DNA of 64,000 bases, taken from the NCBI RefSeq assembly GCF_023101345.1, contig NZ_CP095848.1, forward strand, positions 3,994,001-4,058,000, read 5' to 3'. Below are positions 29,770 to 62,028 of the stretch, one piece after another. Numbering within the stretch: position 1 is the stretch's first letter; every line of letters begins with the position of its first letter. Under the pieces are notes generated by a model that worked only from the letters and a program-made list of their open reading frames with translations, was not told the origin of the DNA and did no database searches. This DNA is from Hymenobacter sublimis. Lineage in GTDB: Bacteria > Bacteroidota > Bacteroidia > Cytophagales > Hymenobacteraceae. The translations under genes were made by a program, and so were the position numbers.

Positions 29770-29861
29770 TACCCCTTTGAAACGTGACAAGCCCTTACGT
29801 CCGTGGTGGAGGTAAGGGCTTGTTATGTTAGCAGGCGTTTGGCAAAGAGAGAAAGGATAGC
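29770..29861. repeat. TGACAAGCCCTTAC repeat element, copy 1
   Basis: About 90 bases that align with 40041-40129: ACCC(C)TT..GA, GTGACAAGCCCTTAC, TCCGTG.TGGA, GGGCTTGTT, and GAGAGAAAGGAT at the end. It contains the hairpin ACAAGCCCTTACGTCC / GGTAAGGGCTTGT (29787-29823). It lies downstream of the hmgA stop (minus strand). Confidence 0.65.
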
Positions 29862-37637: not shown

Positions 37638-39974
37638 ATGTCGAAAAAATACAATGCTGTAGCGTTGCTTTTCCTGTGGTTGCTGAGCATACACGCCGTT
37701 CAGGCCCAGAAGGTGGGCCTCGTGCTCAGCGGAGGCGGGGCTAAGGGCCTGGCCCACGTGGGCGTGCTGAAGGTGCTGGAGAAGAACCGAATCCCTATTG
37801 ACTACATTGTGGGCACCAGCATGGGCGCCATTGTGGGCGGCATGTACGCGGCCGGTTATTCGCCCCGCGAAATCGAGGAAATTGTGCTTAAGCCCGAGTT
37901 TCAGGACTGGGTGGCCAACCGCCCCCTCGAAGGCAAAGTGTTCAACTTCTACGATGCTGACCCCTCGCCGGCGGCTCTGCATCTGGGCTTGTCCATCGAT
38001 ACGGCGTTTCGCACCCGCGTTACGCCGCGCATTATCAACGACGCTACCCTGAACTACGTGCTGGCAACCATGCTGGCCCCGGCCGGCGCCATATCCAATT
38101 ACAACTTCGATAACTTATTCGTGCCCTACCGGGCCGTGGCCTCCGAGGTATTTACCCGTCAAAAGGTAGTGCAGCGCAGTGGCTCCCTCTCCGATGCCGT
38201 GCGTAACTCCATGGCGTTTCCGCTGGCTTTCCGCCCCATTCGCCAGGAAGACGGGCGCTACCTCTTCGACGGGGCCGTGGTCGACAACTTCCCGACCGGC
38301 GTTATTCGGCAGGAATTCAAGCCTGACATCATCATTGGGGTGAACGTGGGCGACGTAGCCTACCGCAAATACCCCAAGGAAAAGGACGACCAGTTGTTAA
38401 CCAGTACTCTCGTCTTTTTGGGTTCTAATGCCGCTGACACCCTTTCGGTGGGCCCGAACGGCATTTTTATTCAGCCGGATATAACAGATTACACCGCCGC
38501 CGACTTTGGGCGGGTGAAGCGCCTGATTGCCTTGGGCGAGCAAGCCACTGAAGAAAAGCTGGCCCTTACCCTGCAGCGTATTCAGCGCCGCGAAGACACC
38601 GTAGCCTTGCAGCAGCGCCGCCTTGCGTTCCAGCAGCGCGCCCCCAAACCCGATTTCACCCGCATTACCGTGCAGGGCCTGCCCCGGCAGCAGCAGGAGT
38701 TTGTGCGCCGTTTTTTCCAGCGTAGCGGCTCTACCTACACCCCCAGCGACGTGGAAGAAGGCTACTTCCGCCTTGTCAGCAACGACTTCTTTACCAACGT
38801 GTACCCGCGCATCCGGTACTCAGAGGAGCAGAAAGGCTACGGACTGAGCATTGACGCGCGCCAGGCCAACAACCTTACCGCCGACTTAGGCGTGCTGCTT
38901 TCCTCACGCTCCATGAGCAACTTTTACCTGGGCGGCGCCTACCGCTACCTGAGCCGCTACCTCTATACGGTGCGGGCCAATGCCACGGTGGGCCGCTTTT
39001 ACAACGCCGTGCAGGGCTCATTCCGGGTAAGCGTGCCCGGCCAGGTTCCGCTGTACTTTGAGCCCATTGTCACCTTCAACAACCTGAACTACCAGGATAC
39101 CGGCGGCCTGCTTGGGCAGAATGCCGAAACCAGCCAGCTGGTGCAGCGCGACCTGAAAACGGCCCTTAACATTGGCATCAGCCCCAACTACCGCAGCCGC
39201 TACGTGCTCGACATCGGCGCCTTTACCAACCGCGACCGGTTTGCCAATACCAGCGAGGTAAGCAGCACCGATGAGCTGGACCTGAACCGGTTTCAGGGCA
39301 TTACGGCCGGCCTCCGCTTCGAGCGCAACTCCTTGAATGCTCGCCAGTACGCTACCAAAGGCCGCCGGGCTGAGTTTGCGCTGCGTGGCATCACGGGCCA
39401 GGAAAAATACGACCCCGGCACTACCGCCAACGAGGTAGAGGGCCGGACCAAAAACCAGCGCTGGGTGAAGGGCTCCTTGTTTGTGGAGCAGTATTTCTCG
39501 CTAAGTAAAACGGATTCCGTGGGGGCCAAAACCAACGCCTGGGGCTACCTGCTCGATGCCGTGGCCAGCACCCAGGGCGCGTTTGCTACCTACCGCTCTT
39601 CCCTGACGACCTCCGCCGCTTTTCTCCCCCTGCCCGACTCCCGCACCTTGTTCCTGGACAATTACCGGGGCACAGCTTATGCTGGTGCCGGCCTGCGCTA
39701 TGTGAAAGGCGTTTTCCGGGGCGTAGAATGGCGCTCGGAGGCGTTTGCACACGTGCTAGTGCGCCCCTGGAAACAAGCCTACGACAATCCCGTGCTGGTA
39801 CGCCGTTCCAACAGCGTAAGCCGCCCCTACCTCACCTTCATGACCGGCCTCGTCTACCAGACGCCCGTCGGCCCGCTCTCCGTACAAGCCATCCACTACG
39901 ACGACCCAAACCACCGTTTCGGTGTCTTCGCCCACATCGGCTACGTCCTCTTCCGCGACCGGTCATTGGAGTAA
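37638..39974 (+). CDS. Patatin-like phospholipase fused to outer-membrane barrel
   Basis: A 778-residue protein. Signal peptide (to about 23, HAVQAQ), patatin domain at about 27-320 with GGGAKGLAHVGVLK, nucleophile S61 in GTSMGAIVGGMYAAGY, and the dyad Asp D211 in DGAVVDNFP; then a POTRA-like stretch at about 340-405 (FTRITVQGLPRQQQEFVRRF) and a C-terminal 16-strand-type barrel of the Omp85/surface-antigen kind, ending GVFAHIGYVLFRDRSLE. This is the patatin-POTRA-barrel arrangement known in PlpD-like type Vd secretion and in uncharacterised Bacteroidota proteins. It is likely an outer-membrane lipase; whether the patatin part is released is unknown. Confidence 0.91.
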   Translation: MSKKYNAVALLFLWLLSIHAVQAQKVGLVLSGGGAKGLAHVGVLKVLEKNRIPIDYIVGTSMGAIVGGMYAAGYSPREIEEIVLKPEFQDWVANRPLEGKVFNFYDADPSPAALHLGLSIDTAFRTRVTPRIINDATLNYVLATMLAPAGAISNYNFDNLFVPYRAVASEVFTRQKVVQRSGSLSDAVRNSMAFPLAFRPIRQEDGRYLFDGAVVDNFPTGVIRQEFKPDIIIGVNVGDVAYRKYPKEKDDQLLTSTLVFLGSNAADTLSVGPNGIFIQPDITDYTAADFGRVKRLIALGEQATEEKLALTLQRIQRREDTVALQQRRLAFQQRAPKPDFTRITVQGLPRQQQEFVRRFFQRSGSTYTPSDVEEGYFRLVSNDFFTNVYPRIRYSEEQKGYGLSIDARQANNLTADLGVLLSSRSMSNFYLGGAYRYLSRYLYTVRANATVGRFYNAVQGSFRVSVPGQVPLYFEPIVTFNNLNYQDTGGLLGQNAETSQLVQRDLKTALNIGISPNYRSRYVLDIGAFTNRDRFANTSEVSSTDELDLNRFQGITAGLRFERNSLNARQYATKGRRAEFALRGITGQEKYDPGTTANEVEGRTKNQRWVKGSLFVEQYFSLSKTDSVGAKTNAWGYLLDAVASTQGAFATYRSSLTTSAAFLPLPDSRTLFLDNYRGTAYAGAGLRYVKGVFRGVEWRSEAFAHVLVRPWKQAYDNPVLVRRSNSVSRPYLTFMTGLVYQTPVGPLSVQAIHYDDPNHRFGVFAHIGYVLFRDRSLE

Positions 39975-40213
39975 ATGGTGAAATGGTGAGTTGTCATGGC
40001 GAGGAGGCACGACGAGGCCATCTGTCCTGGCCAATGGGTTACCCTTAAGAAGTGACAAGCCCTTACCTCCGTGCTGGAAGTGAGGGCTTGTTGCATTATC
40101 AGGCTTGTCACAAGGAGAGAAAGGATGGCGTCGTCGTGCCTCCTCGCCATGACACAGTGCTTCAATCACTCATGCACGAACTCACCACCTCACCATCTCA
40201 CCATCTCACCCTT
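39975..40213. repeat. Nested repeat: GTGA arms, GTCATGGCGAGG hairpin, TGACAAGCCC element
   Basis: Between the patatin and aquaporin genes three repeats are nested. Outermost are GTGA-type arms (AATGGTGAAATGGTGAG at 39975; CTCACCATCTCACC at the right end). Inside are perfect 22-bp arms starting GTCATGGCGAGGAGGCACGA (39993-40014) and their complement (40132-40153). Innermost is a copy of the TGACAAGCCCTTAC element (40041-40129). It fills the gap between the two stop codons. Confidence 0.75.
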
Positions 40214-41047
40214 TCACTTCTCTTCCGGATAAACTGGCGGCTCCTCGCCGGGGGTGTGGGGCGAGGAGGGGCCGGGCGTGCAGCCGGCCAGGATGGCGCA
40301 GTCGAGGTCTTCACCGTGGTACAAGCGGCGGAACAGCACCGTGGCCAGCCACATGGCCAGGGGCGGCGCTACCCAGTACAGCCACAGGCCCCGGTAACTT
40401 CCGGCGGCTACCGCCGAGCCCAGGGTGCGCGCGGGGTTCAGGCTCATTCCGGAGTAGGGCGTTTCAAAAACAATGTAAAGCGCCAGTAGAGCGCCGATCA
40501 GCCAGCCGGCCCGCTTTTTCCAGGTGGCCGAGTGCAAGGCGGCCAGCAGCACAACCATCAAAATAAAGGAGATGATGAACTCGGCGGCAAAGGCCAGAAA
40601 CTCCCCCTGCGGTCCGGGCTGGGTTACGGTGAAGTTGACGCTTGGGTGGGCGTAGAGGGAGCCCAACGCCCCCTTCAGGAGTTGCCCCGCTCCTAGCGCG
40701 CCGGCCACCTGAAATAGCACGTACCAGATGGCATCGGGGGTGCGCAGCTTGCCTAACTGCCAGAAACCCAGCGTAACGGCGGGGTTGATGTGGGCTCCGG
40801 AACGCTTGCCCCAGGGGCTGTAGACAATCAGTACCACCACTAGGCCCATGCTCAGACCTAGCAACCAGTGCCGCACCTGCTCCTGGCTGCGCAATGCTTG
40901 GTGCAACGGGGAGGCCGGGTGCTCCAGCCCAGTTGTCAGCAGGGCGGCGCAGGTCATGAAAAAAGCAATGCCCGCCGCTTCCGCCAGGTAATGCGCCCAA
41001 TGACGGCGCAGGGCGGCAAGCAGGCGGGCAGCGAACGATACGGACAT
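40214..41047 (-). CDS. Aquaporin / MIP family channel
   Basis: A 277-residue channel with six transmembrane helices and the two NPA loops: SGAHINPAVTLGFW (first) and SGMSLNPARTLGSAVA (second). The residue after the second NPA is Arg, as in all MIP channels. Residues that line the selectivity filter are not decisive, so water versus glycerol cannot be told; the protein lacks the Asp-typical glycerol-facilitator GYAINPARDFGPR and is probably of the water type. The C-terminal 35 residues are Pro/Glu-rich and cytoplasmic. Confidence 0.92.
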   Translation of the reverse strand: MSVSFAARLLAALRRHWAHYLAEAAGIAFFMTCAALLTTGLEHPASPLHQALRSQEQVRHWLLGLSMGLVVVLIVYSPWGKRSGAHINPAVTLGFWQLGKLRTPDAIWYVLFQVAGALGAGQLLKGALGSLYAHPSVNFTVTQPGPQGEFLAFAAEFIISFILMVVLLAALHSATWKKRAGWLIGALLALYIVFETPYSGMSLNPARTLGSAVAAGSYRGLWLYWVAPPLAMWLATVLFRRLYHGEDLDCAILAGCTPGPSSPHTPGEEPPVYPEEK

Positions 41048-61919: not shown

Positions 61920-62028
61920 GCGGTGAGATAGTGAAATGGTGAGATGGTGAGTTTTTCGTTTTAACTGCGCCACTTGCGCCCATGGAACGTAGAACTCACC
62001 ATCTCACCATTTCACTACCTCACCGCTT
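61918..62028. repeat. GTGA-type long hairpin, copy B
   Basis: The arm AAGCGGTGAGATAGTGAAAT and following bases (61918 on) is repeated as its complement ending CCATTTCACTACCTCACCGCTT at 62028; about 36 bp pair with one or two mismatches. The centre holds GCGCCACTTGCGCC, complement of GGCGCAAGTGGCGC, matching the GGCGCTAATGGCGC core of copy A. It fills the gap from the metF stop to the TPR gene. Confidence 0.8.

Follow-up and report, generated by a model that had tools for sequence, protein, structure and literature searches.

A two-layer palindrome between convergent Hymenobacter genes and a GIY-YIG nuclease as candidate partner of its REP arms

Between two convergent genes of Hymenobacter sublimis lies a gap of 239 bases (39975-40213, stop to stop) in which inverted repeats are set one inside another, and the question it raises is how many separate elements this arrangement records and what could have brought them together. 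Positions refer to the window, that is, the whole stretch of 64,000 nucleotides that was analyzed (C1:3994001-4058000 of the 4.78-Mb genome), unless a contig is named. The first-pass annotation described the gap as GTGA arms enclosing perfect 22-bp arms, which enclose a TGACAAGCCCTTAC element, and the length of the gap, the orientation of its neighbors and each of these parts are confirmed in the sequence. Repetitive extragenic palindromes (REPs) rank among the most common repeats of bacteria, and for the kind tagged with GTAG the enzyme, RAYT, is known. The analysis presented here leads us to read the gap as a palindrome of two layers, the inner of which is probably the non-coding form of a nuclease-carrying element and spread by means of that nuclease.

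Anatomy of the gap and its two layers

The gap is bordered on the left by a gene whose protein reads as patatin-like (37638-39974, plus strand) and on the right by one that reads as an aquaporin/MIP-like protein (40214-41047, minus strand). Directly 3' of the patatin-like stop codon is the left outer arm, a GTGA array of two 8-bp units (39975-39992, plus strand). Its counterpart on the right comprises five GTGA units with a period of 8 bp (approximately 40167-40217, minus strand), the last of which contains the TGA stop codon of the aquaporin-like gene, and the two outer arms are 86-89% complementary. Inside them, the left REP arm GTCATGGCGAGGAGGCACGACGAGGCCATCTGTCC (39993-40027, plus strand), composed of a GTC tag, an ATGGC..GCCAT stem and a short tail, faces its own inverted copy (40119-40153, minus strand). 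Both of these 35-nt arms start with GTCATGGCGAGG, and the perfect 22-bp inverted match (39993-40014 with 40132-40153) is part of them. The spacer between the arms consists of a left segment, TGGCCAATGGGTTACCCTTAAGAA (40028-40051, plus strand), which recurs in other copies, a right segment that is its partner (40095-40118, plus strand), and between these a central hairpin of 15 bp plus 3 bp with a 5-nt loop (40052-40094, plus strand), one side of which is TGACAAGCCCTTAC. This 43-nt hairpin has a predicted energy of -27.7 kcal/mol (z -6.9), and the entire gap folds as one long hairpin of -135 kcal/mol (z -10.6), with none of 200 shuffles as good. A scan of the gap for terminator and promoter consensus sequences returned nothing, and a search of Rfam returned only a sub-threshold miRNA match, which we take as chance.

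A DNA search with the gap sequence found 87 matching pieces in the same genome, which reduce, together with pattern searches, to approximately 41 distinct sites of the REP unit. The GTCATGGCGAGG arms, the spacer segments and the TGACAAGCCC hairpin keep a constant order at these sites, with arms and hairpin apart only in decayed or truncated copies. A 21-nt spacer pattern allowing three mismatches has 25 matches in the genome versus none for its control, and matches to the spacer hairpin pattern were seen only in copies of the unit. Because arms and hairpin co-occur in this fixed order, the inner part of the gap (39993-40153) is one fixed REP-type dimer, two inverted arms around a hairpin spacer, and not the product of two successive insertions. 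A second copy in the window (29785-29861, plus strand) has lost its left arm and presents a core match followed by the right arm.

Inspection of the arms across copies reveals that GTC is preceded by T in 107 of 127 arms and by C in 13, and that one stem position covaries within the arm (T-A 96, G-C 25, T-C 3, G-T 2, A-A 1). The predicted fold of a single arm is no better than that of its shuffled versions. Many copies are heterodimers, and the match between the two arms of a locus, compared with arms of other loci, is weak (985 of 10,000 permutations), so that a perfect 22-bp match such as the one found here is atypical. The halves of the spacer stem fit their own partners better than the halves of other copies (0 of 10,000 permutations). 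As to setting, the neighboring genes are convergent at 23 of the 41 copies, codirectional at 14 and divergent at four.

The GTGA arrays are a separable outer layer and form a family with an 8-bp period. A pattern of three GTGA units with one mismatch matches 181 times in the genome versus three times for the reversed control. GTGA palindromes also exist with no REP core inside them, for example elsewhere in the window (61929-62024), and others enclose a different REP family (L100, L115); conversely, the REP core is found without a GTGA layer at L015, L018, L025, L029 and L069. As with the spacer stems, GTGA arms resemble their own partners over the arms of other loci (22.5 versus 17.7; 0 of 10,000 permutations). 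Arrays of this kind, read as CTCACC.., also stand directly upstream of start codons (L094, L096, L109, L113), and the period of 8 places TGA in all three frames.

A nuclease gene between the same arms

One copy of the REP unit (L032, C1:1054562-1055030) carries a 94-aa GIY-YIG ORF (C1:1054668-1054949) in the place that the central hairpin occupies in the short copies, with full arms outside and half of the central hairpin sequence on each side of the ORF. The protein matches PF01541 with an E value of 7.7e-18, and Pfam recognizes GIY-YIG in 14 of 14 of these proteins. Y7, Y18, G20, R28, E31, H32 and N84 are invariant in the family and E65 is nearly so. The nearest solved structure is the UPF0213 protein 1zg2 (profile match, E 3e-7), which a phylogenomic survey from 2006 placed in the bacterial Slx1 cluster, described there as being without a C-terminal Asn (PMC1564403). 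Since Asn84 is invariant here, any placement of this family within the superfamily is tentative. The coding copy lies in a gap beside an apparent phosphoglycerate kinase gene; the congeners G111 and G089 carry the coding element in the same gap, where another, G030, has an unrelated GTCATTCCGAGC-type REP dimer. A separate palindrome, whose arms measure approximately 42 bp (CTACGGCGGCACC..CTTCCGCAT), is centered on the coding copy, and the genome contains a second small GIY-YIG ORF (L088, C1:4127956-4128147), flanked by GTCATCCTGAGC-type inverted arms. A RAYT-type transposase was considered as the driver and rejected, as the Y1 profile PF01797 has no match in this genome and does match in control genomes.

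Relatives of the ORF are present in 98 of 120 congeners, and the nucleases of several congeners match those of named Hymenobacter records identically or almost so. Within 400 bp of the gene at the 28 nearest congener loci (subfamily 1), GTCATTGCGAG arms flank both sides in 25, of which 24 are exact and one has a single mismatch, and the other three have them on one side only; paired GTCATTGCGAG arms occur at none of 30 aquaporin control loci. In a second, more distantly related GIY lineage, arms of the GTCATGCTGAG or GTCATGCAGAG type (GTCAT..TGAG or GCAGAG) stand on at least one side at 18 of 20 loci. Scanning genome contigs with an alignment of the 14 nuclease proteins gave 80 loci, which span Bacteroidota, Chloroflexota, Bacillota, Planctomycetota, Pseudomonadota, Patescibacteria and others. 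Outside Hymenobacter, among the 50 loci with full flanks, GTCATTGCGA arms stand in both inner windows at 30, whereas both outer control windows, 550-880 bp away, have them at none of the 50; at least one window has them at 39 loci versus three. Judged from sequence, arm type follows the tree of the predicted nucleases, and the pairing is cognate across phyla. Over a tree of 128 nucleases, built from 94 columns and with many forks unresolved, the GCGAG type changes eight times and the TGAG type ten times, compared with 37.4 and 28.6 changes after shuffling (0 of 500 shuffles as low). Cognate pairing that extends over the tree and over many phyla suggests a long joint descent of nuclease and arms.

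The relationship is looser when whole genomes are compared. A strict arm pattern, which has no control matches in any of the 120 congeners, matches 28 times in the focal genome, three times in G030, 128 times in G014 and 116 times in G021. By an eye tally that ignores kinship, at least four matches occur in 22 of the 28 genomes that have a close nuclease and in 28 of the 92 that lack one. That some arm-rich genomes have no close nuclease weakens any strict dependence of the arms on the enzyme; such genomes may have lost it after the arms had spread. The 116 matches in G021, which has no close relative of the nuclease, represent either an orphan family or one with a more distant enzyme.

We regard the GIY-YIG nuclease as a strong candidate for the partner enzyme of CGTC-tagged REPs, one that would make the system an analogue of RAYT and REPINs built on an unrelated enzyme. 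The inner unit would be a miniature, non-coding version of an element that, in its coding form, holds the 94-aa nuclease between the same arms. The nuclease would recognize its cognate arms as hairpins or cruciforms and nick or cut them, and repair or replication from another copy would carry the short unit to further sites, with a preference for palindromes already present directly behind genes. At this gap, the landing site would have been a GTGA palindrome that filled the space between the two convergent genes. Linkage is not activity, and we infer the cutting, the mobilization and the order of insertion.

The same gaps in relatives and the rival readings

In the closest relative, G030, whose aquaporin is 94% identical, the same gap is occupied by a near-perfect GTGA-only palindrome with no REP unit (L121), a partial state of the kind that the first-pass annotation had looked to in close strains. 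Other congeners have in this gap GTGA-like arms together with arms of the GTCATCCTGAG type (L122, L140), GTGA together with arms of the GTCATTGCGAG type (L141-L144, L148), no more than a plain hairpin, which bears a T run in L123 (L123, L132, L134), or nearly nothing (L145-L147). Comparison of 22 further REP-unit sites with G030 indicates that the family is kept at approximately ten, replaced by another REP family at six, and represented by a GTGA-only palindrome at two (L006, L026), the remainder having a hairpin, other inserts or a gene. In G030, the gap orthologous to L029 (L243, G030:C3:302990-304050) contains three neighboring features, namely GTGA arms, a hairpin with a T run and a REP dimer of the GTCATGCAGAG type. 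No target-site duplication was noticed on informal inspection of these orthologous gaps.

The separability of the GTGA layer and the GTGA-only gap of G030 support one nesting step here, the REP unit inside a GTGA palindrome, with a provisional polarity: G030 could have lost the unit by deletion rather than never having had it. Given that possible loss and the swapping of inner families at orthologous gaps, the nesting does not yield the general relative ages of the families that had been hoped for. The initial proposal of three different mobile elements, one inserted into another, was right about the order from outside to inside, and the GTGA layer and the core do each occur alone; the absence of the inner unit from G030 also agrees with it. 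It is nonetheless very improbable, as the arms and the spacer hairpin, which it counts as two families, were found to behave as the single unit that it named as its own refutation, leaving two layers and one nesting step. That the GTGA arms are instead part of the REP element is improbable as well. Among 36 copies scored for period-8 GTGA pairs around the unit, 15 have them on both sides and 11 on one side, as this reading would predict, but ten have them on neither, and it must also contend with the many coreless GTGA palindromes and with GTGA around another REP family.

Two further readings address the inner unit itself. The gap may be mainly a functional bidirectional RNA structure, which ends transcription or protects 3' ends and is under selection, with mobility incidental. 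We consider this possible, though not the leading account: the fold is very stable, more than half of the copies lie between convergent genes, spacer stem halves fit their own partners, and a plain hairpin with a T run takes the same gap in a relative, but the consensus scan revealed no terminator-like site, and the contents of orthologous gaps are swapped freely between families. The mostly convergent or codirectional setting and the own-partner matching of stems make a role in ending or protecting transcripts plausible, and such a role and the nuclease model may both hold. An unlikely alternative makes the GIY-YIG gene a passenger or homing gene taking advantage of the arms, while the REPs spread otherwise, for instance by hairpin-templated replication errors. 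A small single-domain nuclease in few copies per genome would suit a passenger, as would the several arm-rich genomes without a close nuclease, but the cognate pairing seen over the nuclease tree, and its recurrence in many phyla, argue against this alternative. We retain as the probable reading a two-layer palindrome whose inner unit derives from the nuclease-carrying element.

Comparison with known repeat systems

The CGTC-tagged REP superfamily has been reported in five phyla, Bacteroidetes among them, as four families that apparently have no dedicated transposase (Di Nocera et al. 2013, PMC3733652). The arms described here share with it the (C/T)GTC tag, which in that superfamily is left unpaired at one end (CGTC or TGTC/CCTC), as it is here. 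Both have an AT stem start and a short tail (GTCAT..ATCC here), although the superfamily tail is CC(A) and CC in our arms is usually followed by G or T. The head-to-head dimers and structured spacers of the superfamily correspond to our inverted pairs and conserved spacer, a location close to 3' ends, where genes are convergent or codirectional, is also shared, and some superfamily dimers lie inside palindromes, as in this gap. In contrast, the superfamily stem has 8-9 bp with a loop of 4-5 nt, while the arm here has a 5-bp ATTGC/GCAAT stem and a variable segment. Because the stem differs and a single arm folds like its shuffles, we call the arm a related REP and not a member of one of the four families. 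The other difference is that no dedicated enzyme was described for the superfamily, whereas the arms here enclose a GIY-YIG gene.

REPINs and their RAYTs resemble the present system in combining one coding element with many short non-coding dimers and in pairing enzyme lineage with repeat type. They differ in enzyme, which is a Y1/HUH tyrosine transposase in that case and a GIY-YIG protein here, in a genome with no Y1_Tnp gene, and in tag, which is GTAG there and (T/C)GTC here. Minimal bacterial GIY-YIG nucleases (UPF0213 1zg2, the Slx1 cluster) likewise consist of a single small domain with no extra domains, but the gene described here is flanked by matching REP arms. MITEs and Rickettsia palindromic elements are, like these units, short, palindromic, mostly non-coding and dispersed; here no classical transposase was found and the copies examined lie between genes. 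Within the open-access literature, we found no paper that links a GIY-YIG nuclease with REP, RAYT, REPIN, MITE or palindromic elements, also when the palindromic repeats of Hymenobacter were the subject, and a search with the GTCATTGCGAG sequence led to no REP paper. An earlier description in subscription journals or preprints is possible.

It seems to us somewhat better than an even chance that minimal GIY-YIG nucleases are dedicated mobilizers of GTCAT-type (CGTC/TGTC) REPs in many phyla. They would then form, next to RAYT/REPIN, a second and independent pairing of REPs with an enzyme, in which the lineages of enzyme and repeat match. The window illustrates how one intergenic gap comes to receive palindromes repeatedly, with nesting inside the gap and swaps between species. 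The GIY-YIG gene, enclosed by matching arms across many phyla, is a concrete and testable candidate for the missing enzyme of CGTC-tagged REPs, and if the enzyme acts on the arms, the pairing of nuclease and REP would close a gap that has been noted for a widespread repeat class.
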